Assembly: GCF_016887965.1 (NCBI RefSeq)
Contig: NZ_JAFDVD010000010.1
Coordinates: 1 to 41,964, forward strand
Direction: 5' to 3'
DNA from: Phycicoccus sonneratiae
GTDB lineage: Bacteria > Actinomycetota > Actinomycetes > Actinomycetales > Dermatophilaceae
DNA: 41,964 nucleotides
The notes beneath the pieces are model-generated. The model worked only from the letters and a program-made list of their open reading frames with translations. It did no database searches and was not told the origin of the DNA. The position numbers were made by a program, and so were the translations under genes. Of the stretch, positions 3,774-25,719 are shown one piece after another; positions within the stretch are counted from its first letter, which is position 1; each line of letters starts with the position of its first letter.

Positions 3774-3896
3774 CGGGGCAGCCTCGCACGACCCGCCGAC
3801 GGGCGGCTGCGCGGACGTGGACGCGCTCTGGCGCCGGCCCGGGTCCGACCCCTACGCTGGGCGGCGTTCGGTGCGTATCGCGAGACAGGTTGCCCC

Positions 3897-9559: not shown

Positions 9560-10446
9560 GCGGGGCTGGCCGCGGCCTCCGCCGCCTGTCGGGCCCGGTG
9601 CGCCGCGATCCACGACATCCCCCACTCGTCGTTGCCGAGCATCAGGTCCGAGGCGCGCACCGCGTCGACGATCTGCGGGGTGCGGGCGTCCATGATCGCG
9701 CTCGTCATGCCGGCGGACATCGCGAGCGGCAGCCACGCGGCGTTGAGCGCGTGCCGCCCGGGCATCCCGAAGCTGACGTTGGACGCACCGCACGTCGTGT
9801 TGAGGCCCCACCGCTCGCGGATGCCGCGGATCACCTCGAGCGTCGTGCGACCGACCGTGGAGTCGGCGCCGATGGGCATGGCGAGCGGGTCGATGACGAT
9901 GTCGTCGATCGCGATGCCGTACTCCTCGGTGGCGACCCGGACGATCTTCTCGGTGAGGGCGAGGCGCTTCTCGGCCTCCATCGGGATCTCGTCCTCGTCG
10001 TTGGGCAGGGCCACGATCGCCGCGTCGTACTTCTTGACGAGCGGGAGGATGGCGGCGAGCCGGTCGTCCTCGGCGGTGCACGAGTTGACCAGGGCCCGGC
10101 CCTCGTACGCCTCGAGCCCGGCCTCGAGCGCCTCGACGACCGAGGAGTCGATGCACACCGGCAGGTCGGTGAGCCCCTGGACCATCCGGATCGCCGTGAC
10201 GAGCAGCTCGGCCTCGTCGGTGAGCGGGACCCCCATGTTGATGTCGAGCACGTCGGCGCCGCCGGCGACCTGCGCCGCGACGTCCTTGGCGATGATCGAG
10301 AGGTCGCCCTCGCGAAGCGCGGCCTGGAGGACCGGCCGGCCGGTGGGGTTGATCCGCTCGCCGATGACGCAGAACGGCTTGTCGGCCCCGATGACGACCT
10401 CCTTGGTCGCCGACCGGAGCACCGTGTGCCGCAGCGGGGCGCTCAT
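9556..10446 (-). CDS. Methyltetrahydrofolate:corrinoid methyltransferase (MtgA/AcsE-like)
   Basis: The 296-residue protein is a pterin-binding TIM barrel of the dihydropteroate-synthase-like family. Motifs are the opening CVIGERINPTGRP, GGADVLDINMG, VCIDSS, LVNSC and CGASNVSFGMPGR, all shared with AcsE, MtgA and the folate-binding part of MetH. It would carry a methyl group between methyl-corrinoid and THF. With the neighbouring MtgB-like enzyme the direction is probably methyl-corrinoid to THF, as in glycine betaine demethylation by Desulfitobacterium. The ATG overlaps the stop of the corrinoid gene (ATGA), so the two are coupled. Confidence 0.92.
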   Translation of the reverse strand: MSAPLRHTVLRSATKEVVIGADKPFCVIGERINPTGRPVLQAALREGDLSIIAKDVAAQVAGGADVLDINMGVPLTDEAELLVTAIRMVQGLTDLPVCIDSSVVEALEAGLEAYEGRALVNSCTAEDDRLAAILPLVKKYDAAIVALPNDEDEIPMEAEKRLALTEKIVRVATEEYGIAIDDIVIDPLAMPIGADSTVGRTTLEVIRGIRERWGLNTTCGASNVSFGMPGRHALNAAWLPLAMSAGMTSAIMDARTPQIVDAVRASDLMLGNDEWGMSWIAAHRARQAAEAAASPA

Positions 10447-11108
10447 GCGAGCACCTTCGAACGGCGCTCCTGGAGAAGGGCCTTGGCGCGCTTGACGGTC
10501 GCCGACGCATCCGCCGCGTACCCGTCGGCGCCGACCGCGTCCGCGTACTCCTGGGTGACCGGCGCACCACCGACCATGACGATGACCGAGTCGCGCATGC
10601 CGGCCTTCTCGAGGGCGTTGATGTTGGCCTTGAACATCGGCATCGTCGTCGTGAGGAAGGCCGAGAAGCCGACGATGTCGGGCTGGTGCTCGTCGATGGC
10701 GGCGACGAACTTCTCCGGGGCGACCTGCACCCCGAGGTCGATGACCTCGAAGCCGGCACCCTCGAGCATGATGTTCACGAGGTTCTTCCCGATGTCGTGC
10801 ACGTCGCCCTTGACGGTGCCCATGAGGAACTTGCCGATGGTCTCGACGCCGGTGTCGGCGAGCAGCGGTCGCAGCACCTCCATCGAACCGGCCATCGCGC
10901 GCCCGGCGATGAGCATTTCGGGGACGAAGAAGTCGCCGCGCTCGAAGCGCGCACCGACCTCCTCGAGCGCCGGGATGAGCGCGTCGAAGAGCAGGCTGCC
11001 GGGGGCCATGTCCATCCCGAGGGCCTGATGGGTCAGGTCGAGGACGGCCGGGCCGTTGCCGACGAGCGTCTCGTCGTACAGGCCCTTGAGGATGTCGTCG
11101 GGGGTCAT
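10443..11108 (-). CDS. Corrinoid (B12-binding) methyl-carrier protein, MtbC/MtgC-like
   Basis: The 221-residue protein has the helical cap domain (residues 1-85, with GARFERGDFFVPEML) followed by a Rossmann-like B12 domain. The cobalt-ligand motif DVHDIGKN is intact, as are the GFEVIDLGVQVAPE and VGGAPVTQEYADAVGADGYA segments. It would accept the methyl group from the MtgB-like protein and pass it to the MtgA-like protein. Start ATG has an AGGAAGG ribosome site inside the end of iclR and overlaps its stop (ATGA). Confidence 0.95.
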   Translation of the reverse strand: MTPDDILKGLYDETLVGNGPAVLDLTHQALGMDMAPGSLLFDALIPALEEVGARFERGDFFVPEMLIAGRAMAGSMEVLRPLLADTGVETIGKFLMGTVKGDVHDIGKNLVNIMLEGAGFEVIDLGVQVAPEKFVAAIDEHQPDIVGFSAFLTTTMPMFKANINALEKAGMRDSVIVMVGGAPVTQEYADAVGADGYAADASATVKRAKALLQERRSKVLA

Positions 11109-11872
11109 GCCGCACCTTCCTGTGGGTGGTTCTCGAGCCGTGCGGAGAGCGCCGCGGCGTGGCCGGCGACCAGCGCACCCGTCGACGGGATCTGGTCGGA
11201 CAGACGCGAGGTCGGCCCGGAGATGCCGAGCGCGGCGACGACAACGCCGCGTGCGCGGACGGGCGCGGCGATGCCGGTGAGGCCGGGCTCGAGCTCGTCG
11301 ACGGTGGCGGCCCAGCCGGCGCGCCGGATGCCCGGCAGCTGCTCGGCGAGCTGGGCGCCGGAGGTGACCGAGGCCGGTGACGGCGCGTCGAGCCGGCCGG
11401 AGGGGACGGGCAGGGCGCCGTGCGCGTAGAGGACCTTGCCGAGCGCCGAGCAGTGCGCCGGCACGTCGGTGCCCACCCAGTCGCGCGAGCCGAGGAAGTA
11501 CGCCGCGTCGACCTGCGCCACCTGGACGACGGTGCCGCGTCGGGGCACCCCGAGGTTGACGGTCTCGCCCGTCAGCTCGCCGAGCGCGCGCATCGACGGA
11601 CCGGCGGCCTCGACGAGCACCTCGTCGTCGGCGCGGCGGGTGGCGTAGAGGTCGAAGAGCGGTCCCGGGGCCCAGCCGCCCGCCTCGTCGCGGGCGAGCA
11701 GCTCGGAGCGCTCGAGGGCGCCGAGCAGGCGCTGGGCCGTGGAGCGGGCCAGGCCGGTCGCCTCGGCGAGCGCGGTCGCGGTGACCGGTCCGTCGGCCCG
11801 CACGACGCGTCCCACGAGGTCGGCGGCCCGGTCGATCGACTGGGTCCCGGTGCTCGGGCTGGACGGCGTCAC
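11105..11872 (-). CDS. IclR-family regulator of the corrinoid locus
   Basis: The 255-residue protein has an N-terminal IclR winged helix (residues 10-70, VTATALAEATGLARSTAQRLLGALE) and a GAF-like effector domain (LTGETVNLGVPRRGTVVQVAQV, then HCSALGKVLYA, then ELEPGLTGIAAPVRA). It is the first gene of the minus-strand methyl-transfer operon and is divergent from the MtgB-like gene. A perfect inverted repeat sits in the promoter region between them, suggesting it controls both transcripts and itself. The start is a GTG with an AGGAGG ribosome site 8 bases upstream. The effector may be betaine or a relative (inference). Confidence 0.9.
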   Translation of the reverse strand: MTPSSPSTGTQSIDRAADLVGRVVRADGPVTATALAEATGLARSTAQRLLGALERSELLARDEAGGWAPGPLFDLYATRRADDEVLVEAAGPSMRALGELTGETVNLGVPRRGTVVQVAQVDAAYFLGSRDWVGTDVPAHCSALGKVLYAHGALPVPSGRLDAPSPASVTSGAQLAEQLPGIRRAGWAATVDELEPGLTGIAAPVRARGVVVAALGISGPTSRLSDQIPSTGALVAGHAAALSARLENHPQEGAA

Positions 11873-11915
11873 GGCCGGGTCCTCCTGGGGTGGTCAGGGT
11901 GTGGGCGAGAGGTGC

Positions 11916-11950
11916 TCATGATGTGGGCCTTGCCGGTCCACATCATGAGG
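11916..11950. promoter_or_regulatory. Operator between iclR and the MtgB-like gene
   Basis: CTCATGATGTGG at 11916-11927 and its perfect reverse complement CCACATCATGAG at 11939-11950 flank an 11-base spacer. Arm centres are 23 bp apart, about two helical turns. The repeat covers the -35 and abuts the -10 of the rightward promoter, so bound protein should repress. The divergent IclR is the obvious candidate. Confidence 0.85.
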
Positions 11951-11958
11951 CTAGGATG
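11931..11958 (+). promoter_or_regulatory. Promoter of the MtgB-like gene
   Basis: TTGCCG (11931-11936) and TAGGAT (11953-11958) are spaced by 16 bases. The -35 lies in the spacer of the inverted repeat and the -10 begins 3 bases after its right arm. The predicted leader is about 40 bases, with GGAGG at 11993-11997. Confidence 0.6.
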
Positions 11959-12003: not shown

Positions 12004-13443
12004 ATGTTCACGAACCGGATGCCGCGCTACGAGATCCTCTCGGCCGACGCGATGTCCCAGCTCGACGCCGGCTGGCGCCGCCTCGTCACCGAGATCGGCG
12101 TCGAGTTCATGAGCGAGCGGGCCCTCGAGCTGTTCCGGCAGGCCGGCCAGAAGGTGGAGGAGAACACGGTCTTCCTCGACCCCGAGTTCGTCCTCGAGCA
12201 GGTGGCCAAGGCCCCGCGCGAGTTCGACGTGCAGGCCCGCAACGCGGAGCGGAACATCCACATCGGCGGCGACTCGATGGCCTTCGGCGCCGTGTACGGA
12301 CCGCCGTTCGTCCGCGAGGGCGAGACGCGCCGCGACGGGACGATGGAGGACTACCGCAACTTCGCCCGTCTCTCGCAGTCCTTCTCGGTCCTCGACTCGG
12401 CGGGCGGCGTCGTCTGCGAGCCGAACGACACCCCCCTCGACTCGCGCCACCTCGACATGACCTACGCGCTGATGACGCTCACCGACAAGGTGTTCATGGG
12501 CAACGTCGTCTCCGGCGAGAACGCGCGCGACGTCATCGCGATGTCCGAGATCCTCTTCGGCGGGCGCGAGGCCATCGAGCGCACCCCCACCTCGATCAGC
12601 CTCGTCAACTGCAACAGCCCGCTGCGCTGGGACGACCGGATGCTCGACGCGCTCTTCGAGTACGCCGCCGCCGGCCAGCCGTGCGTGCTCACGCCGTTCA
12701 TCCTCATGGGCGCGATGTCGCCGGTCACCATCCCGGCGGCCCTCGTCCAGCAGATCGCCGAGGCGCTGTCGGGCATCGCGCTCGCCCAGCTCATCCGGCC
12801 GGGCTGCCCGGTGATCTTCGGGTCGTTCCTCTCGAACATCGACATGCAGTCCGGCTCACCGACGTTCGGCACGCCGGAGTCGGGCATCGGCCTCCTCTGC
12901 ACCGGCCAGATCGCCCGCCACTTCGGGCTGCCCTTCCGCACCGGCGGCGGGCTGACCTCCTCGCAGGTCCCCGACGCGCAGGCCGGCTACGAGGCGCTGA
13001 TGACCCTGCTGCCGACCTTCCTCGCGGGCACCAACTGGGTGATGCACAGCGCCGGCTGGCTCGAGGGCGGCCTCGTCGCCGGCTTCGAGAAGTTCGTCGT
13101 CGACTGCCAGATCGTCGAGATGCTCCAGCACGAGTTCACGCCGCTCGAGATCGACGAGGGGTCGCTCGGGTTCGACGCGCACCAGGAGGTCGGGCACGGC
13201 GGGCACTTCCTCGGGTCGATGCACACGATGGAGCGCTTCCGCACCTGCTTCTACCGCCCGTTCCTCAACTCCTCCGAGAACTACGAGCGGTGGATGCGGA
13301 ACGGGGCCCAGGACACCGCGACCCGCGCGGCGGCCATCTGGCGCAAGCGGCTCGAGGAGTACGAGCAACCGGCCCTCGACGAGGCCGTGCGGGCCGAGCT
13401 CGAGGAGTACGTCGTGCGCCGGCGCCGCGAGCTCGGCGACTGA
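12004..13443 (+). CDS. MttB-superfamily (non-pyrrolysine) methyltransferase, MtgB-like
   Basis: The 479-residue protein is a full-length trimethylamine-methyltransferase-family barrel. Typical segments are the start region LVTEIGVEFMSERALELFRQAG, GGDSMAFGAVYGPPFV, the middle SLVNCNSPLRWDDRMLDALFEYAAAGQP and the late GFDAHQEVGHGGHFLGSMHTMERFR. The frame is unbroken, with no in-frame amber codon, so it belongs to the non-Pyl branch that includes glycine betaine methyltransferase MtgB and relatives acting on other quaternary amines. It would methylate the Co(I) corrinoid protein encoded divergently. Betaine is the best guess because transport, choline oxidation and dimethylglycine genes surround it; proline betaine, carnitine or gamma-butyrobetaine remain possible. 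Confidence 0.88.
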   Translation: MFTNRMPRYEILSADAMSQLDAGWRRLVTEIGVEFMSERALELFRQAGQKVEENTVFLDPEFVLEQVAKAPREFDVQARNAERNIHIGGDSMAFGAVYGPPFVREGETRRDGTMEDYRNFARLSQSFSVLDSAGGVVCEPNDTPLDSRHLDMTYALMTLTDKVFMGNVVSGENARDVIAMSEILFGGREAIERTPTSISLVNCNSPLRWDDRMLDALFEYAAAGQPCVLTPFILMGAMSPVTIPAALVQQIAEALSGIALAQLIRPGCPVIFGSFLSNIDMQSGSPTFGTPESGIGLLCTGQIARHFGLPFRTGGGLTSSQVPDAQAGYEALMTLLPTFLAGTNWVMHSAGWLEGGLVAGFEKFVVDCQIVEMLQHEFTPLEIDEGSLGFDAHQEVGHGGHFLGSMHTMERFRTCFYRPFLNSSENYERWMRNGAQDTATRAAAIWRKRLEEYEQPALDEAVRAELEEYVVRRRRELGD

Positions 13444-14325: not shown

Positions 14326-14358
14326 TTGCGCCATTCGCTACCGTTGCGCCATGCGCAC
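14326..14358. promoter_or_regulatory. Tandem operator over the iclR2 promoter and start
   Basis: Two copies of the TTGCGC-N3-GCGCAA motif begin at 14326 (TTGCGC-CAT-TCGCTA) and 14344 (TTGCGC-CAT-GCGCAC), 18 bp apart. The first overlaps the promoter spacer and the second covers the ATG. The same paired motif precedes proV, the first BCCT gene and the flavoprotein gene. This is the layout of autorepression. Confidence 0.8.
14339..14344 (+). promoter_or_regulatory. -10 box of iclR2
   Basis: TACCGT followed by 6 bases and the ATG at 14351 predicts a leaderless message. The box lies between, and partly in, the two operator copies. Confidence 0.5.
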
Positions 14359-15133
14359 CACCACGCGGGACGGAGCCAGCACCGTCCAGTCCGTCGACCG
14401 GGCCGTGACGATCCTCGAGCTGCTCGCCCTGCACGGCGCCGCCGGCATCACCCAGCTGGCCCGCGAGCTCGGCGTCCACAAGTCCACCGCCAGCCGGCTC
14501 GTCTCGGCCCTGGAGCGCCGGCGGCTCGTCGAGCAGGTGGAGGAACGCGGGCGCTACCGCCTCGGGGTCGGGGTGCTCAAGCTCGCCGGCGCGACCAACG
14601 CCCGCCTCGACCTCGTCCAGGAGGCGCGGCCGGTCGTGCGGCGGCTGGCCTCCGAGACCGGCGAGACGGTCAACCTCGCGGTGCTCTCCGGTGGCGCGGC
14701 GCTCTACGTCGACCAGGTCTCCGGCAGCACGAACCTCACCTCGTACAACTGGGTCGGCCAGCACATCCCGCTCCACGCGACGAGCAACGGCAAGGTCCTC
14801 GTCAGCGAGCTCCCCGAGGGCGAGCTCGGCCGGCTGCTCGGCGACCTGGTCCGCTACACCCCGGCGACGATCACCGACCGCGCGACGCTCGACCACCAGC
14901 TCGCCGAGGTGCGCGAGCGCGGCTGGGCCGTGGCCGTCGACGAGCTCGACGTCGGCCTCACCGCCGTCGCCGCGCCCGTCCGCGACGCGCACGGCGACGT
15001 CGTGGCCTCCGTCTCGGTCTCCGGGCCGACCTTCCGGTTCGCCGGCGGCCGGGTCGAGGAGCTGGTCCCCCTCGTGCGGGCGGCGACGGCCGAGATCTCG
15101 GGCCGGCTGGCCCACGGCCCCGGGGAGCGCTGA
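14351..15133 (+). CDS. IclR-family regulator (IclR2), probable betaine-regulon repressor
   Basis: The 260-residue protein has an IclR helix-turn-helix at residues 10-70 (AAGITQLARELGVHKSTASRLVSALERR) and an effector domain with ETGETVNLAVLSGGAALYVDQVSG, IPLHATSNGKVLVSELP and AVDELDVGLTAVAAPVRDAHGD. It is upstream of and codirectional with proVWX, 128 bases away. Its start lies within a tandem operator also found before proV, the BCCT gene and the flavoprotein/ETF operon, so it is the natural candidate for the regulator of that set. Whether it acts as repressor and what ligand releases it (betaine, dimethylglycine, sarcosine) is inference. Confidence 0.92.
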   Translation: MRTTTRDGASTVQSVDRAVTILELLALHGAAGITQLARELGVHKSTASRLVSALERRRLVEQVEERGRYRLGVGVLKLAGATNARLDLVQEARPVVRRLASETGETVNLAVLSGGAALYVDQVSGSTNLTSYNWVGQHIPLHATSNGKVLVSELPEGELGRLLGDLVRYTPATITDRATLDHQLAEVRERGWAVAVDELDVGLTAVAAPVRDAHGDVVASVSVSGPTFRFAGGRVEELVPLVRAATAEISGRLAHGPGER

Positions 15134-15179
15134 CCCCGCGCCACCGCGGAAACGCTGTGACCACAGGGCGTCCACACCC

Positions 15180-15208
15180 TTGACCCCCGGGAGGCCGGGG
15201 TCCATCCT
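15180..15208 (+). promoter_or_regulatory. Promoter of proVWX
   Basis: TTGACC (15180-15185) and CATCCT (15203-15208) are 17 bases apart. The tandem operator starts 2 bases after the -10, so the transcription start lies inside it. Confidence 0.55.
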
Positions 15209-15209
15209 G

Positions 15210-15243
15210 TTGCGCAGAACACATGGTGTTGCACATGGCGCAA
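15210..15243. promoter_or_regulatory. Tandem operator before proV
   Basis: Copy 1 (15210-15224) keeps the left half TTGCGC but has a degenerate right half. Copy 2 (15229-15243) is TTGCAC-ATG-GCGCAA, one mismatch from a perfect inverted repeat. They are 19 bp apart. Confidence 0.75.
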
Positions 15244-15261
15244 CCACTGCGGAGGTGGACG

Positions 15262-16361
<1,100 letters not shown>

Positions 16362-16365
<4 letters not shown>

Positions 16366-18485
16366 CGACGACGCTCGAACCGGCACCGGCGCCCGCCCCG
16401 CGGGCCACCAAGGAGGAGCAGCCGCACACCGTCGTCATGCCCTCACGGCACACGGGACGCAAGCTGCTCGTCGTCCTCGTCCTCTGGCTGGTCGCGTGGG
16501 CGACGTTGCGCGGCAAGCAGACCCTCGCCCTGGCCAACGCCGACACCACGGGCCTGCACGAGTGGCTCAACGAGGTCCGCGACCGCGTGCAGCTGCTCGG
16601 GCAGGACAACTGGTTCTTCCACGGGGTGCTCGGCAGCATCGCGAGCGTGCTCGACTCCTTCGTCGGGTTCCTCCAGTCCCACCTCAGCTCGGTGACGCCG
16701 GGGGCCTACCTCGGCTGGCTGGGCGTCCTCGCCCTCGCCGCGTGGGTGACCTACACGCTCGCCGGCCTCCGCTCGACCCTCCTCGTGACGGCCGTCCTCC
16801 TCTTCCTCGGCGTGGCCGGGCTGTGGACCGACGGCGTCGACACGCTGATCATCACCGTCGTCTCGGTGCTCATCTGCATCGTCATCGGGCTGCCGCTGGG
16901 GATCGCGATGTCCCGCAGCCACCGCACGTCCGCCCTCATGACCCCCGTCCTCGACGTCATGCAGACGATGCCGTCGTTCGCCTACCTCACCCCCATCGCG
17001 CTGTTCTTCGGCATCGGCCCGGCCTGCGCGATCGTCCTCACCCTCATCTACGCCCTGCCCCCGCTCGTGCGCATCACCGAGCACGGCCTGCGCTCGGTCG
17101 CGGCGAACACCGTCGAGGCCGGCCGCTCGCTCGGGGTGACGAAGGGCCAGCTGCTGCGCCAGGTCCAGCTGCCGATGGCCAAGCGCACCATCGTCGTCGG
17201 CATCAACCAGAGCACGATGGCCGCGCTGTCGATGGCGACGATCGCCGCGCTCGTCAACGGCCCGGGCCTCGGCAAGCCGGTCGTCGCGGCGCTCCAGAGC
17301 CTCAACGTCGGAGCCGCCTCGGTCGCCGGCCTCGGCATCGTCCTCATCGCGATCATGCTCGACCGCACGACGACCGCGGCGAGCGAGCGCTCCGCACCGG
17401 CCGGCCAGCGCGTGACGGCCGTCAGCTCGCCCGGGTTCTTCCGCGGACCGACCGTCGTCATGGAGAAGCTGCCCCGCTGGGCCACCGAGGAGGGCGGGCA
17501 CGGCGAGCCGGCCAAGCGGCTCACCCCCGGCGGCCGGCGCCTGGTCCTCGGCCTGCTCCTCGTGCCGGCGCTCGTCGCCGCGTACTACTCCACCCTCTAC
17601 CTCCAGCTCTCGCAGTTCCCGGACGTCTCGGCCGTCCCGCTGCTCGGCGAGCTGACCTCCGGGCCGCTGAGCACGCACATCAACGACCTGACGACCGCCG
17701 TCGTCGACGCGCTGTCCGGCCTGACCAACGGGTTCAAGGACCTCGTGACGCTCGGCATGCTCAACCCGCTCCAGTCGGTGATGTCCGACCTGCCGTGGTG
17801 GGTCATGGCGCTGGTGCTCCTCGCCGTCGCGTACCTCCTCGGCGGCTGGCGGCCCACCGTCGTCACCGCCGTCTGCGAGGCCGTCATCCTCGGCACCGGG
17901 CTCTGGTACGACGCGATGGTCACCCTGACGATGACGATCGTCGCGACCCTCCTCGTCATGCTCATCGCCGTCGTCCTCGGGGTGGCGATGGGCCGCGGCC
18001 GGCGCACCGACACCGTCATCCGGCCCTTCCTCGACGGCTTCCAGACCATCCCCGCCTTCGTCTACCTCGTGCCGGCGCTCGCCCTCTTCGCCGCGACCCG
18101 CTTCACGGCGATCATGGCCGCCGTCGCCTACGCCGTGCCGATCGCCACGAAGCTCGTCGCCGACGGCGTGCGGGGCGTCTCGCCGACCTCGGTCGAGGCG
18201 GCCCGCTCCACCGGCATCACCCGCTGGCAGATGATCTCCAAGGTCCAGCTGCCGATGGCCCGCGAGGCGCTCGTCCTCGCGACCAACCAGGGCCTGCTCT
18301 ACGTGCTGTCGATGGTCGTCATCGGCGGCATGGTCGGTGGCGGCAGCCTCGGCTACCTCATCGTCCAGGGCTTCGTCCAGGGCCAGCTCTTCGGCAAGGG
18401 CCTGGCCGCCGGCATCGCCATCACCGCCCTGGGGATCATGCTCGACCGGATCGCGCGGTACGCCGCCGCGCGGTACGGACGGTGA
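16362..18485 (+). CDS. proW: Glycine betaine ABC transporter permease, two fused ProW domains
   Basis: The 707-residue protein contains two complete permease units in tandem. The first has [20 protein letters not shown] and the second [20 protein letters not shown], both classic ABC coupling (EAA) loops that dock on ProV. Each unit is preceded by several hydrophobic helices, and a hydrophilic linker lies near residues 340-390. Typical ProW is one domain of about 300-350 residues acting as a homodimer, so this gene encodes both halves of the pore in one chain. GTG start is coupled to proV. The N-terminal 40 residues are cytoplasmic and proline/alanine rich. Confidence 0.92.
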
Positions 18486-18567
18486 CGGGACCGCCCCGGA
18501 CCCCGCGCACCATGCACCACCACCACGACCCCGCGCCAGGACGCGGACACAGAAGAGGGAGAAGTCA

Positions 18568-19539
18568 ATGCCACGAGGAACCACCCGGCTCCCCCTGATC
18601 GCCGGCCTCGCCGCGGTGGCCCTCGGCCTCGCGGCCTGCGGCGGGGGCAACATCGAGCAGTCCGGCGGGTCGGACACCGCGGCCGGCGGGAAGGACTGCG
18701 GCGACCTGCGGATCGCGGTCAACCCGTGGACCGGCTACGTGAGCAACGCCCACGTCATCGGCTACGTCGCGAAGACCAAGCTCGGCTGCAACGTCACCTA
18801 CCCCGACGTCAAGGAGGAGGTCGGCTGGCAGGGCATGGCCTCGGGGTCCATCGACACCATCGTCGAGAACTGGGGACACGCCGACCTCACGAAGAAGTAC
18901 ATCACCGAGCAGAAGACCGTCCAGGACGCCGGGCTCACCGGCAACCAGGGGATCATCGGCTGGTACGTGCCGCCGTGGATGGCCGAGAAGTACCCGGACA
19001 TCACGAACTGGGAGAACCTCAACAAGTACGCCGACATGTTCAAGACCTCGGAGTCCGGCGGCAAGGGCCAGCTGCTCGACGGCGACCCGTCGTACGTCAC
19101 GAACGACGAGGCGCTGGTGGCCAACCTCAAGCTCGACTACAAGGTCGTCACCGGCGGCTCGGAGGCGGCGCTCATCACGAGCTTCCGCCAGGCCGAGAAG
19201 AACAAGACCCCGTTGCTGGCCTACTTCTACGACCCGCAGTGGTTCTTCTCCGAGATGAAGCTCGTCAAGGTCGACCTGCCGAAGTACACCGACGGGTGCG
19301 ACGCCGACGCCAAGAAGGTCGCCTGCGACTACCCGCCGTACGCGCTCAACAAGCTGATCGCCACGAAGTTCGCCGAGTCGGGTTCTCCCGCAGTGGACCT
19401 CATCAAGAAGTTCCAATGGACCAATGACGACCAGAACGCCGTGTCCGAGATGATCGCCAACCAGAACATGACCCCCGACGACGCCGCCAAGAAGTGGGTG
19501 GAGGCCAACCCGGACAAGGTCGCCGCCTGGCTCGGCTGA
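18568..19539 (+). CDS. proX: Glycine betaine-binding lipoprotein (ProX/OpuAC-like)
   Basis: The 323-residue protein begins with a lipoprotein signal (hydrophobic helix 9-20, lipobox LAAC with Cys24) and is anchored outside the membrane. The mature part matches the OpuAC family: LRIAVNPWTGYVSNAHVIGYVAK, then IVENWGHADL, GWYVPPWM and AYFYDPQWFF. The many tryptophans and tyrosines in these motifs probably form the aromatic cage around the quaternary ammonium. A GGGAGAAG ribosome site precedes the ATG. The gene follows proW by 82 bases and a strong terminator follows it. Confidence 0.93.
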   Translation: MPRGTTRLPLIAGLAAVALGLAACGGGNIEQSGGSDTAAGGKDCGDLRIAVNPWTGYVSNAHVIGYVAKTKLGCNVTYPDVKEEVGWQGMASGSIDTIVENWGHADLTKKYITEQKTVQDAGLTGNQGIIGWYVPPWMAEKYPDITNWENLNKYADMFKTSESGGKGQLLDGDPSYVTNDEALVANLKLDYKVVTGGSEAALITSFRQAEKNKTPLLAYFYDPQWFFSEMKLVKVDLPKYTDGCDADAKKVACDYPPYALNKLIATKFAESGSPAVDLIKKFQWTNDDQNAVSEMIANQNMTPDDAAKKWVEANPDKVAAWLG

Positions 19540-19559
19540 CGCCCCGCCGGACTCCTCTA

Positions 19560-19598
19560 GGCCGGATCGTCCCCGCTCCCGCGGGTGACGGTCCGGCC
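19560..19598 (+). terminator. Terminator of proVWX
   Basis: A 12-bp outer stem (19560-19571 with 19587-19598, one G-T pair) continues into a 5-bp inner stem CCCGC/GCGGG with a 4-base loop and one bulged T. It lies 20 bases after the proX stop. Confidence 0.8.
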
Positions 19599-19605
19599 TC
19601 GGCCG

Positions 19606-19634
19606 TTGACGCGTCGGGTGACCTGGATCACACT
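19606..19634 (+). promoter_or_regulatory. Promoter of the first BCCT gene
   Basis: TTGACG (19606-19611) and CACACT (19629-19634) are 17 bases apart. The predicted start is near 19641, directly before the tandem operator. Confidence 0.55.
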
Positions 19635-19641
19635 GCCTGTG

Positions 19642-19675
19642 TTGTGTGATGCGCACAGCGTTCCGTCCAGCGCAA
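19642..19675. promoter_or_regulatory. Tandem operator before the first BCCT gene
   Basis: Copy 1 is TTGTGT-GAT-GCGCAC (19642-19656). Copy 2 is TTCCGT-CCA-GCGCAA (19661-19675), with an intact right half. Spacing is 19 bp, as before proV and the flavoprotein gene. Confidence 0.72.
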
Positions 19676-19692
19676 CGACGAAGGGACCACCC

Positions 19693-21324
19693 ATGGCCAC
19701 GAGCGCACCCGAGAGAGTCGAGCAGGAGCATCCCGACGGCCACCGCCCGCGCGGGCGCGTCGACACCGTCGTCTTCGGCACGGCGGCCGGACTGGCCCTC
19801 GTCTTCCTGCTGTACGGCGCGATCGACAACGAGGGCTTCGGCGAGTCCGGGGGCAACGTCCTCGGCTGGATCACCGAGAACTTCGGCTGGTTCTTCGTCC
19901 TGACCAGCGGCGGCTTCGTGCTCTTCAGCGCCTTCCTCGCCGCGACCCGGTACGGCAACATCAAGCTCGGCCCCGACGACTCCGAACCCGAGTTCTCGAC
20001 GTTCTCGTGGGTCTCGATGATGTTCGCGACCGGCATGGGCATCGGTCTGATGTTCTACGGCGTCGCCGAGCCGCTGACCCACCTCAACACCCCGCCCCTC
20101 GGGCTCGCCGAGCCGGGGAGCGAGGAGGCGGCCCACCTCGCGATGGAGTACACGTTCTTCCACTGGGGCTTCCACCCCTGGGCGATGTACGCCGTCATCG
20201 GCCTGACCATCGCCTACTTCGCCTACCGCAAGGGCAGCGGCAACCTCATCAGCGCCGCCTTCCGGCCGCTCATCGGCCGCCACGCCGACGGACCGGCCGG
20301 CAAGGGCATCGACATCCTCGCGATCCTCGCGACGCTCTTCGGCTCGGCCACCTCGCTCGGGCTCGGCGCCCTGCAGATCACCGGCGGCCTGGCGAACGTC
20401 TTCGGCAAGAGCGGCTACGGCACGACCGCCGCGGCCGTCGTCATCGCGGTGCTCACCCTCTGCTTCGTCGTCTCGGCGGTCAGCGGCATCGACAAGGGCA
20501 TCAAGTGGCTGTCGAACGCCAACGCGGTCGCGGCCGCCCTGCTCGTGTTCTTCCTCTTCGTCGTCGGCCCGACGGTCTTCATCCTCTCGACCTTCACCGA
20601 GTCGCTCGGCGGCTACCTCACCCACCTGCCGACGATGAGCTTCCGCACCGGCGTCTTCGGCGGCGCCGAGTGGCTCAACGGCTGGACGATCTTCTACTGG
20701 GCCTGGTGGGTCTCGTGGACCCCCTTCGTCGGGATGTTCATCGCCCGCATCTCCAAGGGCCGCACCATCCGCCAGTTCGTCGTCTTCGTCATCGCCATCC
20801 CCTCGCTCGTCTCCTTCGTGTGGTTCTCGATCCTCGGCGGCTCGGCCTTCGACCTGCAGCTGACCCAGGGCAAGGACATGAAGGCGCTCGTCGACGCGGG
20901 GCTCGAGACGACCCTGTTCGACACGCTGCGCTCGTTCCCGCTCTCGACGGTGACCGTCGTGCTCGCGGTCTTCCTCATCGCGATCTTCTTCGTCACCGGC
21001 GCCGACTCGGCCTCGATCGTCATGGGGATGCTCAGCCAGAACGGCGACGAGGAGCCGAACCGCGGCCTCGTCGTCTTCTGGGGCGTGGCCACCGGCGCGA
21101 TCGCCGTCGTCCTGCTCTTCGCGGGCGGCCTGAGCGCGTTGCAGACCGGCGTCATCATCATCGGGTTCCCCTTCCTCATGGTGCTCATCGGCCTGTGCGT
21201 CTCGCTGTGGAAGTCGCTGCGCGAGGAGACCTTCGAGTCCACCCTGCGCGGCCCGATCCGTCGCCACCTGCGCGAGCACCCGGGCGAGCGCCCGGTCGTC
21301 GAGCCGGCGCGCACCGAGGGTTGA
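19693..21324 (+). CDS. BCCT-family betaine/choline/carnitine transporter (short form)
   Basis: The 543-residue protein has the 12-helix LeuT-fold of BCCT carriers. Visible signatures are FATGMGIGLMFYGVAEPLTH, the GSATSLGLGALQITGGL segment and the aromatic substrate box YWAWWVSWTPFVGMFIARISKGRTIRQF. It imports quaternary ammonium compounds with sodium or protons. The glycine-rich helix GMGIG is the variant associated with sodium-coupled BetP-like carriers, whereas BetT types have an aspartate there; this is a hint, not proof. The C-terminal tail is short. It is transcribed alone from the operator-controlled promoter upstream and followed by a strong hairpin. Confidence 0.93.
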   Translation: MATSAPERVEQEHPDGHRPRGRVDTVVFGTAAGLALVFLLYGAIDNEGFGESGGNVLGWITENFGWFFVLTSGGFVLFSAFLAATRYGNIKLGPDDSEPEFSTFSWVSMMFATGMGIGLMFYGVAEPLTHLNTPPLGLAEPGSEEAAHLAMEYTFFHWGFHPWAMYAVIGLTIAYFAYRKGSGNLISAAFRPLIGRHADGPAGKGIDILAILATLFGSATSLGLGALQITGGLANVFGKSGYGTTAAAVVIAVLTLCFVVSAVSGIDKGIKWLSNANAVAAALLVFFLFVVGPTVFILSTFTESLGGYLTHLPTMSFRTGVFGGAEWLNGWTIFYWAWWVSWTPFVGMFIARISKGRTIRQFVVFVIAIPSLVSFVWFSILGGSAFDLQLTQGKDMKALVDAGLETTLFDTLRSFPLSTVTVVLAVFLIAIFFVTGADSASIVMGMLSQNGDEEPNRGLVVFWGVATGAIAVVLLFAGGLSALQTGVIIIGFPFLMVLIGLCVSLWKSLREETFESTLRGPIRRHLREHPGERPVVEPARTEG

Positions 21325-21336
21325 GGCACCCCCGCC

Positions 21337-21373
21337 GCCGACCACCCGTCCCGGTCGTGGACGGGTGGTTGGC
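21337..21373 (+). terminator. Terminator of the first BCCT gene
   Basis: A 15-bp stem (21337-21351 with 21359-21373, one G-T pair, 11 bp perfect core) has a 7-base loop. Its distal end overlaps the -35 of the next promoter. Confidence 0.8.
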
Positions 21374-21397
21374 AGCGGGCAGCGGGTCTGCCAGACT
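21369..21397 (+). promoter_or_regulatory. Promoter of the flavoprotein-etfBA operon
   Basis: TTGGCA (21369-21374) and CAGACT (21392-21397) are 17 bases apart. The transcription start should be near 21404, just before the tandem operator. Confidence 0.55.
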
Positions 21398-21408
21398 GTG
21401 ACCTCGTG

Positions 21409-21442
21409 TTGCACCATGTGCGACCTGTTGCGTATCACGCAC
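21409..21442. promoter_or_regulatory. Tandem operator before the flavoprotein gene
   Basis: Copy 1 is TTGCAC-CAT-GTGCGA (21409-21423) and copy 2 is TTGCGT-ATC-ACGCAC (21428-21442). Each is one mismatch from a perfect 6-bp inverted repeat with a 3-base centre, and they are 19 bp apart. These are the best-preserved pair in the window. Confidence 0.82.
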
Positions 21443-21470: not shown

Positions 21471-23996
21471 ATGGCCGCTCTCCCCTCCTCCGCCCGCTGC
21501 GTCGTCATCGGCGCGGGGATCGTCGGGAACTCGCTCGCGTACCACCTCGCCGAGCTCGGCTGGACCGACATCGTCCAGCTCGACAAGGGGCCGCTGCCCA
21601 ACCCCGGCGGCTCCACCGGCCACGCGAGCAACTTCATCTTCCCGGTCGACCACTCGCGCGAGTTCGCCGACATCACCCTCGACTCGATGCGCCAGTACAA
21701 GGAGCTCGACGTCTTCACCGAGTCCGGCGGCTTCGAGGTCGCGCGCACCGAGGAGCGGATGGAGGAGCTGCGCCGCCGGATGAGCAGCGCCAAGGCCTGG
21801 GGCATCCCCGCCGAGCTGGTCACCCCCGAGCAGGTCGCCGAGAAGGTGCCCTTCCTCGACAAGGACGTCATCATCGGCGCCGCGTGGTTCCCGACCGTCG
21901 GCGTCGTCGACAGCCTGCGGGCCGGCACGATCATGCGCGAGCGCGCGGTCGAGAAGGGCGCGCTCACCACGGTGCCGAACGTCGAGGTCACCGGCATGGT
22001 CGTCGAGGGCGGTCGGATCCGCGCCGTCGAGACCAACCAGGGCACCATCGAGGCCGAGACCGTCGTCATCGCCTGCGGTGTGTGGAGCCCGAAGATCGCG
22101 CGGATGGCCGGCGCCCACATCCCGCTGACCCCGGCCGTGCACCAGATGATCTCGGTCGGTCCGTGCGAGGTGCTCGCCGAGCGGCCGGGAGAGATCAGCT
22201 TCCCGATCGTGCGCGACATGGACACCTTCTGCTACGAGCGCCAGCACGGCTCCGACATGGAGGTCGGCTCCTACGCCCACCGCGCGATCCTCTGGGACCC
22301 CGAGGACATCCCGTCCATCGAGCAGAGCAAGCTCTCCCCCACCGAGCTGCCGTTCACCGAGGACGACTTCGACCCCCAGCTCGAGCAGGCCCTCGAGCTG
22401 ATGCCCGAGCTGCTCGGCGACGAGCGCGCCGAGATCCGCTACGCCATCAACGGCCTGCTCTCGCTGACCCCCGACGGCTACCCGATCCTCGGCGAGACCC
22501 CGGAGGTCAAGGGCCTCTGGTCGGCGGCCGCCGTGTGGATCAAGGAGGGCCCCGGCACCGCCCGGGCCGTCGCCGAGTGGATGACCCACGGCAACCCCGA
22601 GATCGACCTGGGGCACAGCGACATCGCGCGCTTCCACCCGCACCAGAAGACCCGCGCGCACGTCAAGGCGCGCACGTCGGAGTCGTTCATCAAGACCTAC
22701 GGCATCGTGCACCCGGGCGAGCAGTACACGAGCAACCGCAACGTGCGCCTCGCGCCGATGCACGAGTCCCAGAAGGAGCTCGGCGCGGTGTTCTACGAGG
22801 CCGCCGGCTGGGAGCGCCCGCACTGGTACACCTCGAACGCCGGGCTCGTCGAGAAGTTCGGCCCCGAGCAGACGATGCCGCGCGAGCACGAGTGGGACGC
22901 CCGCTGGTGGAGCCCGATCATCAACGCCGAGCACCTCCAGATGCGCGAGACGGCCGGTCTCGTCGACCTCTCGGCGTTCGCGATCTTCGACGTCGTCGGG
23001 CCGAAGGCGCTCGAGGCCGTGCAGCGGATCATCGTCGCGCAGGCCGACGTCCGCATCGGCCGCGTCGTCTACACCCCCGTGCTCGACGAGACCGGCGGCT
23101 TCCGCTCCGACCTCACGGTGATGCGCCTGGCCCACGACCGGTTCCGGGTCGTCACCGGTGGCGCGCACGGCATGGCCGACAAGAAGTGGTTCTCCGACCG
23201 CATGCCCGAGGACGGCGGCGCCGTCGTCGTCGACCTCACCTCGGCCTGGACGACCATCGGCGTCTGGGGCCCGAAGGCCCGCGAGATCGTCTCGTCGGTC
23301 ACCTCGGCGGACATGTCGCACACCGGGTTCCCGTTCGGCACCTGCCGCGAGGTCGAGGTCGGCACGCTGTCGGTGCTCGCCTCCCGCATCTCGTACGTCG
23401 GCGAGTACGGCTGGGAGCTGTACGTACCCATCGAGTCGGGAGCGGCCCTCTGGCAGAGGCTCCTCGAGGCCGGGACCCCGCTCGGGATGGTCCCCGTCGG
23501 CATCGGTGTCTACGGCACGACCGGCCGCATCGAGAAGGGCTACCGCGCGTACGGGTACGAGCTCGACACCGAGCGCACCCTGATGGAGACCGGCATGTCG
23601 CGCGCGAAGTGGAAGGAGCAGGACTTCATCGGCAAGGAGGCCGTCGTGGCCCAGGCCGGCGAGGCGCCGAAGGCCGTGCTCTGCTCCCTGACCGTCGACG
23701 ACCACACGTCGGCGAGCGGCGTGAAGCGCTACATGCTCGGCGGCGAGCCGATCCTCACCCGCGAGGGCGGCACGCTCACCGACGGCCACGGCCACCACCC
23801 CTACGTCACGACGGCGGGGTCCGCCCCCAGCCTCGGCAAGCACGTGCTCATGGCCTTCCTCCCGCCGGACCAGGCGACCCTCGGCAACCAGCTCGCCGTG
23901 TCGTACATGGAGGAGCTCTACCCGGTCACCGTCGCCGCCGTCGACGCGACGCCGCTCTTCGACCCCGAGAACGCCCGGATCCGGGGGCTGGCGTGA
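21471..23996 (+). CDS. Dimethylglycine/sarcosine dehydrogenase-like flavoprotein (DAO + GcvT domains)
   Basis: The 841-residue protein has the DMGDH/SDH architecture: FAD domain (residues 8-370, opening VVIGAGIVGNSLAYHLAELG), a short FAO-type linker domain, then a GcvT folate-binding barrel (about 435-715) and GcvT C-terminal domain (730-825). His51 in GGSTGHASNF aligns with the histidine that carries covalent FAD in mammalian DMGDH and Arthrobacter dimethylglycine oxidase. It would oxidise an N-methyl group and pass the formaldehyde-level carbon to THF. Genes for both ETF subunits follow with overlaps, pointing to a dehydrogenase rather than an oxygen-using oxidase. Dimethylglycine and sarcosine cannot be told apart here. 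GGAAGG precedes the ATG. Confidence 0.9.
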   Translation: MAALPSSARCVVIGAGIVGNSLAYHLAELGWTDIVQLDKGPLPNPGGSTGHASNFIFPVDHSREFADITLDSMRQYKELDVFTESGGFEVARTEERMEELRRRMSSAKAWGIPAELVTPEQVAEKVPFLDKDVIIGAAWFPTVGVVDSLRAGTIMRERAVEKGALTTVPNVEVTGMVVEGGRIRAVETNQGTIEAETVVIACGVWSPKIARMAGAHIPLTPAVHQMISVGPCEVLAERPGEISFPIVRDMDTFCYERQHGSDMEVGSYAHRAILWDPEDIPSIEQSKLSPTELPFTEDDFDPQLEQALELMPELLGDERAEIRYAINGLLSLTPDGYPILGETPEVKGLWSAAAVWIKEGPGTARAVAEWMTHGNPEIDLGHSDIARFHPHQKTRAHVKARTSESFIKTYGIVHPGEQYTSNRNVRLAPMHESQKELGAVFYEAAGWERPHWYTSNAGLVEKFGPEQTMPREHEWDARWWSPIINAEHLQMRETAGLVDLSAFAIFDVVGPKALEAVQRIIVAQADVRIGRVVYTPVLDETGGFRSDLTVMRLAHDRFRVVTGGAHGMADKKWFSDRMPEDGGAVVVDLTSAWTTIGVWGPKAREIVSSVTSADMSHTGFPFGTCREVEVGTLSVLASRISYVGEYGWELYVPIESGAALWQRLLEAGTPLGMVPVGIGVYGTTGRIEKGYRAYGYELDTERTLMETGMSRAKWKEQDFIGKEAVVAQAGEAPKAVLCSLTVDDHTSASGVKRYMLGGEPILTREGGTLTDGHGHHPYVTTAGSAPSLGKHVLMAFLPPDQATLGNQLAVSYMEELYPVTVAAVDATPLFDPENARIRGLA

Positions 23997-24766
23997 CCAA
24001 CGTCCTCGTCTGCGTCAAGCGGGTCCCCGACCCGACCGGCGAGGTGGTGCTCACGCCCGACGGGCTGCGCGTCGACGGCCGGTTCGCCGGGTACACGACG
24101 AGCGCGCACGAGGAGGCTGCGGTCGCGCTGGCCGTACAGCTCGCCGAGCCGTCCGGCGGGACCGTCACCGTGCTCTCGGTCGGGTCCGAGGACAGCATCG
24201 AGCAGATCCGCTCGGGCATCGCCGTCGGCGCCACCGACGGCATCCTCGTCGAGGCCGACGCCGACCTGCTCGGTCCGGCCGACGTCGCGTCCGCGATCGC
24301 GGAGGCGGTGCAGGGCCGGGAGGCCGCCGGCACGGGGTACGACCTCGTCCTGCTCGGCAACGACGCCGCCGACACCGGCGACTTCCAGGTCGGGATCCGG
24401 CTGTCCTACCTCCTCGACCGGCCGGTCGTCGCCGGCATCCAGACCGTCGAGGTCGAGGGTGACCGGGCGACCCTGCGCGGGGAGGGGCCGGAGGGCACCG
24501 AGGTCTACGAGGTCGACCTGCCGGCGGTCGCCACCGTCCTCGAGGGCGGCGTCGCGCCGAGGTACCCGAGCGTCATGGGCCGGATGCGCGCCAAGAAGGC
24601 CGAGGTCGAGACCGTCGCCTGGTCGGGCACCGCGTCGGGCTCGGGCCGCGACGCCCTGACCGTGCCCGAGCCGCCACCCAGCGAGGTGACCGTCCTCGGC
24701 GAAGGACCCTCTGCCGCACCGGCCCTCGTGGCCGTGCTGCGCGAGCTCAAGGTGGTGCACGGATGA
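23993..24766 (+). CDS. etfB: Electron transfer flavoprotein beta subunit
   Basis: The 257-residue protein has the ETF-beta pattern: VLVCVKRVPDPTGEV at the start, LAVQLAE, GSEDSIEQIRSGIAVGATDGILV, LLGNDAADTGDFQVGIRLSYLL and the C-terminal PRYPSVMGRMRAKKAEVE region. It binds AMP and, with EtfA, carries electrons from the flavoprotein to the quinone pool through ETF:quinone oxidoreductase, which is not in this window. Its GTG start overlaps the flavoprotein stop (GTGA), so the electron acceptor is coupled to its donor. Confidence 0.93.
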   Translation: MTNVLVCVKRVPDPTGEVVLTPDGLRVDGRFAGYTTSAHEEAAVALAVQLAEPSGGTVTVLSVGSEDSIEQIRSGIAVGATDGILVEADADLLGPADVASAIAEAVQGREAAGTGYDLVLLGNDAADTGDFQVGIRLSYLLDRPVVAGIQTVEVEGDRATLRGEGPEGTEVYEVDLPAVATVLEGGVAPRYPSVMGRMRAKKAEVETVAWSGTASGSGRDALTVPEPPPSEVTVLGEGPSAAPALVAVLRELKVVHG

Positions 24767-25719
24767 GCGTCGTCGTCCTCGTCGAGGTCGAGGAGGGCCG
24801 CGCCTCCCTCGTCTCCCGCGAGACCCTCACCTTCGCGCGCTCGCTCGGCGCCGGCGACCTGCACGCCGTCGTCGTCGGGGAGGCCGGCGAGGCGGTGGTC
24901 GCCGACTGCCGCGAGATGGGCGTCGTCGTCGTGCACGAGGCCGTCGACCCCGCCCTCGAGCGCTACGCCGCGGCGGCCTGGGCGGCGGTCGTCGAGGCCG
25001 CCGGTCGGGCCGCCCGGGCGAACGTCGTGCTCGCCCCCGGCACCGGGCGGGGCATGGAGGTGCTCGCCCACGTCGCGGCCCGCCGGAACCTGCGGATGGC
25101 CGCCAACGTCGTCGCCGTCGAGTCGCTGGACCCGCTCGTCGTCCAGCGCCAGGTGGTCGGTGGGGCCGCCCTCGAACGGGCCACCGTCGACAGCCGGGTG
25201 CGGCTGATGACGATGGCCGGTCACGCCGTCGACCCGAAGCCGGCCGACGCCGCGGGCGAGGCGACGGTCTCCCGGCTCGCCGTCGCCGTCGACCCCCGGG
25301 ACCTGCGGGCCCAGGTGGCGCGGGTCGAGAAGCGCGAGCAGGCCGACACCTCGGGGCTCACGGGAGCGCGGGTCGTCGTCGGGGCGGGCCGCGGCGCCGG
25401 TGGGCCGGACGGCTTCTCGGCCGTCGACGCCCTCGCCACGCGGCTCGGCGGGGCCGTCGGGGTCTCGCGGGTCGTCACCTCGCTCGGCTGGCGGCCGCAC
25501 CACGAGCAGGTCGGCCAGACCGGCTCGCGGATCGCCCCCGACCTCTACCTCGCGTGCGGCATCTCCGGGTCGATCCAGCACTGGGCGGGCTGCGCGTCGA
25601 GCCGGACGATCATCGCCGTCAACACCGACCCGGACGCCCCGATGGTCACCAAGGCCGACTACGCCGTCATCGGCGACATGCACGAGGTGCTGCCCGCCGT
25701 GCTCGAGGAGCTGGGCTGA
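24763..25719 (+). CDS. etfA: Electron transfer flavoprotein alpha subunit
   Basis: The 318-residue protein has the FAD domain at its C-terminus: VVVGAGRGAGGPDGFSAVDALA, SLGWRPHHEQVGQTGSRIAPDLY, ACGISGSIQHWAG and NTDPDAPMVTKADYAVIGDMHEVLP. This matches the ETF-alpha consensus, except that MVTKADYAVIGD replaces the more usual IFKVADYGIVGD. The N-terminal half is more divergent, consistent with a partner-specific ETF. ATG overlaps the etfB stop (ATGA). It is the last gene of the three-gene operon; no hairpin is evident in the 14 bases before the convergent nuclease gene. Confidence 0.93.
   Translation: MSVVVLVEVEEGRASLVSRETLTFARSLGAGDLHAVVVGEAGEAVVADCREMGVVVVHEAVDPALERYAAAAWAAVVEAAGRAARANVVLAPGTGRGMEVLAHVAARRNLRMAANVVAVESLDPLVVQRQVVGGAALERATVDSRVRLMTMAGHAVDPKPADAAGEATVSRLAVAVDPRDLRAQVARVEKREQADTSGLTGARVVVGAGRGAGGPDGFSAVDALATRLGGAVGVSRVVTSLGWRPHHEQVGQTGSRIAPDLYLACGISGSIQHWAGCASSRTIIAVNTDPDAPMVTKADYAVIGDMHEVLPAVLEELG

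Follow-up and report, generated by a model that had tools for sequence, protein, structure and literature searches.

The stretch of Phycicoccus sonneratiae DNA analysed here (contig NZ_JAFDVD010000010.1, all 41,964 nucleotides, hereafter the window) raises the question of which protein reads the paired 15-bp palindromes at several of its promoters, and how far the control exerted through them extends. It corresponds to contig C27 in a genome of 4.11 Mb, for which the nearest named relative found is Phycicoccus sp. HDW14 (95% identity between the IclR2 proteins), and it holds a cluster that reads as one of glycine betaine catabolism genes, with two paralogous regulators of the IclR family, IclR1 and IclR2. 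The evidence strongly favours IclR2 as an autoregulated repressor of betaine uptake, dimethylglycine (DMG) and sarcosine oxidation and one-carbon genes, acting through tandem operators, while IclR1 would control the demethylase genes.

Four promoters of the window carry two copies of the palindrome each, and all eight copies are found where the first-pass annotation had placed them. The starts of the copies are 18 bp apart in the predicted tandem operator of iclR2 (14326..14358; copies 14326-14340 and 14344-14358) and 19 bp apart in those predicted at proVWX (15210..15243; copies at 15210 and 15229), at the BCCT carrier gene (19642..19675; copies at 19642 and 19661) and at the DMG dehydrogenase/ETF operon (21409..21442; copies at 21409 and 21428). 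The annotation listed these four places, all of which are present, but the list is incomplete; a fifth predicted operator lies at 3871..3904, with its second copy over the start codon (ATG 3897) of an MTHFR-like gene, and a sixth is located on another contig before fhs. The earlier consensus, TTGCRC-N3-GYGCAA, is better replaced by GTTGCGYnATrCGCAAC, derived from 184 pairs spaced 19 bp. This double site, shared by the promoters of the betaine genes, is very probably bound by a single repressor, and as it also marks genes that handle the one-carbon units set free, most of the pathway appears to be under one switch.

The promoter-like hexamers are also as first described, i.e. TTGACC (15180)-N17-CATCCT (15203) before proVWX, TTGACG (19606)-N17-CACACT (19629) before the BCCT carrier gene and TTGGCA (21369)-N17-CAGACT (21392) before the DMG dehydrogenase gene. 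The statement that the pair begins right after the promoter holds only roughly, as the first 15-mer starts 1, 7 and 11 bp past the −10 hexamer, respectively. The iclR2 pair does lie over the start codon of its own gene, the second copy spanning the ATG at 14351, and this position is the same in all seven same-genus loci displayed, the window among them. When the dmgdh promoters of relatives were inspected by eye, most displayed loci showed a TTGAC- or TTGGC-like −35 element, a spacer of about 17 bp, a −10-like hexamer and then the operator, the exceptions being L109, L123 and L145. An operator placed after the −10 hexamer would lie about the transcription start, where the bound protein could block the polymerase. 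The centre of the mthfr pairs spaced 19 bp is 6-12 bp before the inferred start in 20 of 21 cases, and the operator therefore holds the start codon.

The position of the operators also bears on the sign of regulation. IclR2 might act as an activator, or in a dual role as proposed for BhcR, and dual IclR regulators are indeed discussed in the literature (PMC11323563; PMC8222616). However, the window operators lie downstream of the −10 hexamer or over the start codon, none of them is upstream of a −35 element, and the order at dmgdh is alike in most displayed relatives. Such a position fits repression, so that activation or a dual role appears unlikely. Two further features of these regions may be recorded. 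The hexamer TACCGT (14339-14344) lies inside the iclR2 operator, 6 bp before the ATG, where no clear −35 element is seen, and from its sequence it could be the −10 element of a leaderless iclR2 mRNA. At the MTHFR-like gene (window 3871-3904; L072:1682; L150:5352), where the operator includes the start codon, it constrains the first codons.

Conservation of the pair before orthologous genes, which the annotation had expected, is clear in the relatives. These scans used a matrix of the eight window copies and are not independent for the four window promoters, whereas the R1 scan and the leave-one-out test described below are. In 20 relative loci most pairs lie before iclR2, proV, bcct, dmgdh, mthfr or aldh, and a few, in L059, L062, L066 and L068, have no assigned gene. 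In 80 named loci (1.42 Mb from Phycicoccus, Nocardioides, Marmoricola, Brevibacterium, Serinicoccus and others), pairs scoring above 18 show a sharp preference in spacing, with 181 at 19 bp, 21 at 20 bp and 7 at 18 bp, every other spacing from 8 to 40 bp being represented by 0-11 pairs. Near the starts of panel genes are 214 of the 220 pairs, although such positions make up only 22% of the bases (the base rate). A pair is carried by dmgdh in 53/57, aldh in 52/63, iclR2 in 58/80, mthfr in 22/31 and bcct in 18/24 cases; it is scarce at proV (6/61), proX (1/54), gmcox (1/59) and iclR1 (1/63). None was found in these loci at mtgB (0/62), rcfd (0/58), metr (0/59), corr (0/60), proW (0/56), etfB (0/17), etfA (0/15), fhs (0/16), sdaA (0/5), bhmt (0/5), o35254 (0/4), lysR (0/2) or gfa (0/2).

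Outside the betaine loci, unlinked fhs sites occur in 11 genomes, and sites precede formate-dehydrogenase-like fdsGB genes in three (G002, G009 and G061; L163:1501, L255 and L265). Among 43 places examined, four have no clear panel gene (none near in L254, L269 and L288; a weak ADH match in L292). Each of 20 named whole genomes yields one or more matches at E ≤ 0.005, a result that is not independent, most of them having contributed sites to the model.

The gene of the likely demethylase stands apart from this set. The mtgB-like gene (12004..13443, plus strand; MTTB superfamily, PF06253), likely a glycine betaine demethylase gene from its context, has no IclR2-type pair. It is divergent from iclR1 (11105..11872, minus strand), the product of which is 41% identical to IclR2, and the region between the two genes contains, at 11913..11951, a tandem IclR-type motif of another kind (GTTCCAtgATGTGGAAC type, degenerate in the window), the presumed IclR1 operator. 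This iclR1-mtgB tandem motif is GTTCCATGATGTGGAAC-N4-GTTCCACATCATGAGG. The best-matching pair is spaced 21 bp in 48 of 66 upstream regions, 20 bp in 10, 22 bp in 5 and 19 bp in 3; 11 near-duplicate loci were removed before the mtgB count, and some near-duplicates remain (e.g. L078, L086 and L137). A matrix built from half of the regions was run on 56 other loci, some of them second copies of training genomes and thus not fully independent. In these held-out loci the GTTCCA-type pair is found at 37/38 mtgB, 37/39 iclR1 and 1/19 mthfr genes, and 1 of 39 pairs has no assigned gene; it is absent from iclR2 (0/56), dmgdh (0/38), aldh (0/41), bcct (0/18) and proV (0/40). As the two motifs have nearly exclusive targets, IclR1 and IclR2 probably read two separate operator codes.

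This partition of targets weakens the explanation that the TTGCG pairs are read by IclR1, alone or together with IclR2, as one shared code for the cluster. The two proteins are near neighbours, and each of the two motifs is similar to the group-1 IclR pattern, which would suit a shared code. The TTGCG pair is nevertheless missing from every mtgB locus counted above, and the GTTCCA pair is nearly confined to mtgB and iclR1. When 18 genomes were checked, IclR1 was missing at E ≤ 1e-30 in G213, G035, G132 and G180, in which TTGCG sites and an IclR2 relative are present, and also in G007. The converse case is G043, in which dmgdh, mtgB and IclR1 lie on one contig, no IclR2 relative is found at E ≤ 1e-60, and the dmgdh pair is only a degenerate one. 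A shared code, or reading of the TTGCG pair by IclR1, is quite improbable in the light of these observations.

Co-occurrence of the pair with IclR2 was assessed in 197 genomes, including that of P. sonneratiae, the cut-offs being E ≤ 1e-60 for an IclR2 relative and E ≤ 0.002 for a site, the latter under strict filters with up to 33 candidates scored per genome. An IclR2 relative is present in 37 genomes, a site in 30 and both in 29. The sites thus occur with the regulator: they are present in 29/37 genomes that have an IclR2 relative and in 1/160 that do not (Fisher 2.5e-26, the species not being independent). An IclR2 relative without a site at the cut-off is found in G028, G036, G073, G113, G123, G158, G162 and G192; in two of these, G158 and G162, the matrix does reveal pairs (20.5 and 32.9). 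A DMGDH match at E ≤ 1e-180 occurs in 26/197 genomes, and 25 of the 26 have an IclR2 relative and a pair of at least 20.5 in the dmgdh stretch, the best pair in L231, L233, L236 and L253 being that of iclR2. The motif, its conservation, the gene set and the co-occurrence with iclR2 are computational findings.

Another cluster-linked regulator, or a general osmotic regulator, would also be a conceivable reader, and G007, a genome of the same genus, lends it some weight by keeping two sites, at mthfr and fhs (L164 and L178), although it has no IclR2 relative at E ≤ 1e-60. The best IclR match in this genome shows 38% identity, no IclR2, DMGDH or IclR1 match is present at the cut-offs used, and on sequence its pairs are either relics or sites of another reader. 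Against such a regulator, iclR2 itself carries the pair in the majority of its loci, the form and spacing of the site are those described for IclR proteins (PMC8222616), and the fhs and MTHFR-like targets are not osmotic genes. This explanation is slightly less probable still than a shared code.

The rarity of the pair in the genome itself was examined in several ways. A degenerate fixed-gap tandem pattern, which was composed after the sites had been seen and misses the iclR2 pair (spacing 18), gave 7 matches at 4 places in the window as compared to 0.54 expected in shuffles, and revealed the place at 3871-3904 that was absent from the first list. In a leave-one-promoter-out test, a matrix built on three promoters ranked the held-out pair of the fourth first in the window outside the training sites all four times, and 1 Mb of Markov sequence never reached the scores of the held-out pairs. 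The single 15-mer, with up to 2 mismatches, is not rare, matching 281 times in the genome (reversed control, 323); this search was therefore uninformative and was set aside, and the signal is in the pairing.

A sequence-only model, R1, was made from 92 tandem sites of relatives (a subset of the 184 pairs, no window site included), and 150 of 967 first-look candidates in the 4.1-Mb genome were scored with it. At E ≤ 10 there are 13 rows, representing 7 distinct places among the candidates scored, in the order C17:25581 (1.3e-5), proV (6.7e-4), mthfr (1.5e-3), dmgdh (0.014), C10:13854 (0.05), bcct (0.107) and iclR2 (0.22). The best match, C17:25581 (L151:1501-1537), lies outside the window, its centre 53 bp before the gene of formate-tetrahydrofolate (THF) ligase (FTHFS, fhs). 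All four pairs of the first list are recovered, together with those of mthfr and fhs, and 6 of the 7 places are promoters, the genes behind them serving uptake, catabolism, one-carbon metabolism or regulation. The remaining one, C10:13854, is a partial match within a peptidase M20 gene and was taken as chance, so that among the candidates scored the pair is rare elsewhere in the genome. Chance or a GC-rich sequence bias can practically be dismissed, since only single 15-mers are common in the genome, whereas pairs at operator spacing are not, as is evident from the spacing peak in relatives, the R1 scan and the leave-one-out and Markov controls.

Several observations weigh against the assignment of the pairs to IclR2, in addition to the sites kept in G007. 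The positives of the co-occurrence count are partly circular, as the training sites of the model lie next to iclR2 genes and come in part from genomes among the 197, and the strict filters may have lost weak sites. The contrast offered by G043, with a pair of 11.3 against at least 20.5 in the other 25 dmgdh stretches, comes from an assembly that is 81% complete. Among the 80 loci, 22 iclR2 genes have no pair at the threshold used, proV has one in only 6/61 loci, and fhs is present in 16 loci, none of which carries a pair of its own. No convincing pair was found at the BADH gene of the window (32029), whereas most aldh loci of relatives have one. The fdsGB genes were rejected as a target in the P. 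sonneratiae genome (L330); they are present, but the best pair in the 10-kb stretch scores 10.8 and lies inside fdsB. The R1 E-values of dmgdh, bcct and iclR2 would not stand alone, and these weaker window sites are supported because of their conservation and the leave-one-out test.

The proposal that IclR2 represses betaine uptake, DMG and sarcosine oxidation and its own gene is nonetheless supported by the conservation and rarity of the pair, its co-occurrence with the regulator, its repressor-like position and its presence at most iclR2 genes. The extent of the regulon was underestimated, as it would also include the MTHFR-like gene and fhs and, in relatives, BADH and the formate-dehydrogenase-like gene pair, with the demethylase gene outside it. 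From these data we infer the binding of IclR2, its oligomeric state, the sign of regulation and the effector. Two IclR2 dimers, probably as a dimer of dimers, would bind two GTTGCGYnATrCGCAAC palindromes that lie on the same face of the helix, separated by about two turns of DNA. Bound across the start of transcription or the start codon, or immediately in front of the gene, they would block iclR2, proVWX, the BCCT carrier gene, the DMGDH-ETF operon, the MTHFR-like gene and the unlinked fhs. A compound of the pathway, the candidates being betaine, dimethylglycine and sarcosine from the gene set alone, may then release IclR2. The neighbouring paralogue IclR1 would control the cobalamin-dependent betaine demethylase genes through its different tandem operator.

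In Intrasporangiaceae, Nocardioidaceae and some other actinobacteria, it is reasonably likely that cobalamin-dependent betaine catabolism is shared out between two paralogous IclR repressors, each with a tandem operator code of its own (GTTGCG... and GTTCCA...). IclR1 would take MtgB and the corrinoid machinery, and IclR2 would take uptake, choline-to-betaine and dimethylglycine oxidation and, outside the cluster, genes of THF-dependent one-carbon metabolism (the MTHFR-like gene, that of formate-THF ligase and the formate-dehydrogenase-like pair of some species). Glycine betaine is both an osmolyte under salt stress and a food. If the proposal is true, one repressor decides between these uses in many soil and marine actinobacteria, and the choice is tied to the handling of methyl groups through folate, so that osmolyte use and the burning of one-carbon units come under one control. 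The operator could then be used directly in the annotation of betaine and one-carbon genes, and IclR2 would be a candidate sensor of betaine or dimethylglycine. The two paralogues, each with its own operator code, would offer a natural system in which the divergence of IclR specificity can be studied.

Among known regulators, GbdR, BetI and GbsR/OpuAR likewise control choline or betaine uptake, synthesis or catabolism, and they are not known as IclR proteins. TphR of Comamonas sp. E6 is a regulator of terephthalate catabolism from a different phylum. Its motif TTTTTGCGCATAGCGCAAAAA, as listed in PMC8222616, has the TTGCGC...GCGCAA core in common with the present one, the two being compared by core only. 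Suvorova and Gelfand (2021; PMC8222616) describe tandem IclR sites with centres 18-22 bp apart in 94 orthologous groups, and site centres that peak near −22 and at −3 to +1. The window spacing of 18-19 bp and the peak of 19 bp in relatives fall within the range of their group-1 tandem operators, and GTTGCGYnATrCGCAAC resembles the group-1 pattern GKTYCRYW3-4RYGRAMC but has G at position 4 (GTTGC in place of GTTYC) and C at its mirror, and it keeps the central W3 only in part. TtgV of Pseudomonas putida (PDB 2xro), an IclR protein solved on its operator, the paper on which is cited for tetramer binding, differs in being an efflux regulator; its match to the IclR2 profile (2e-26) is surpassed by those of a dozen further IclR proteins of solved structure. 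BhcR of Paracoccus denitrificans, a regulator of the glyoxylate pathway (PMC11323563), provides the top-scoring NCBIfam model for IclR2, but IclR2 scores below the cut-off of this equivalog model (NF045644, 195 bits against 350).

The mtgB-, mtgC-, methyltransferase- and RACo-like genes of the window correspond to the cobalamin-dependent betaine demethylation by MtgBCDE (PMC12478193), the main text of which does not contain the word 'IclR'. The words 'betaine' and 'sarcosine' are likewise absent from the main text of PMC8222616, its supplements lying outside the search, and 'IclR' and 'dimethylglycine' both occur in PMC3141670. Prior art around the regulon is given by PMC8222616, PMC12478193, PMC4349456 and PMC11323563. 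When the literature was searched for IclR with betaine, dimethylglycine, sarcosine oxidase or formate dehydrogenase, no description of the regulon was found among the matches listed (subscription papers, RegPrecise and supplements lying outside the search). The earlier statement that no IclR operator of this form is described for betaine catabolism is therefore to be divided, as the tandem form is described (PMC8222616) and the regulon is apparently not. The paired motif is real and conserved and has a known operator architecture, and its regulon is apparently undescribed, larger than first thought and bounded by what seems to be a second regulator.

The IclR2 gene (14351..15133, plus strand) encodes 260 amino acids with the domain layout of the IclR family (HTH_IclR, PF09339, 4.3e-14; IclR_C, PF01614, 8e-48), and the nearest NCBIfam models, BhcR, KdgR and PcaR, all score under cut-off. 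The VHKSTA segment in its recognition helix is invariant across 23 aligned relatives. Contacts predicted from the correlations in PMC8222616 were compared with the recognition helices (VHKSTASR in IclR2, LARSTAQR in IclR1); the comparison was not discriminating and was not used.

Several gene names in the cluster are based on NCBIfam scores under the curated cut-off. The minus-strand part (7661..11108) encodes an MtgC-like corrinoid protein, a methyl-THF:corrinoid methyltransferase and a RACo-type activator, and the remaining cluster comprises iclR1, the mtgB-like gene, iclR2, proVWX, the BCCT carrier gene, the flavoprotein and ETF genes and an L-serine dehydratase gene. The glycine betaine-type ABC transporter (15262..19539, plus strand) is assigned by profile matches, with proV (15262-16365) above the cut-off of TIGR01186, proW (about 16365-18485) matching BPD_transp_1 without an NCBIfam match, and proX (18568-19539) matching OpuAC. 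The BCCT carrier of glycine betaine type (19693..21324, plus strand; PF02028) is above the cut-off of TIGR00842 and scores 605.7 against a cut-off of 650 for NF047988. The plus-strand operon at 21471..25719 consists of a dimethylglycine/sarcosine dehydrogenase-like flavoprotein gene (21471-23996; DAO, FAO_M and GCV_T domains, every NCBIfam match under cut-off), an etfB-like gene (23993-24766; ETF domain within 23993-24763) and an etfA-like gene (24763-25719; etfA models under cut-off).

More distant in the window are BADH-like, GMC oxidoreductase and BetT-like genes, and the pair formed by the MTHFR-like gene (3897..4763, plus strand; PF02219, 8.7e-12; NF005718 under cut-off) and the homocysteine S-methyltransferase-like gene next to it (about 4838-5710; PF02574, 3.5e-66). 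Outside the window, the gamma-like subunit of the P. sonneratiae fds pair scores 146.8 bits against a cut-off of 198 for NF004638, and the other subunit matches NuoF-type models; the pair is therefore named formate-dehydrogenase-like.

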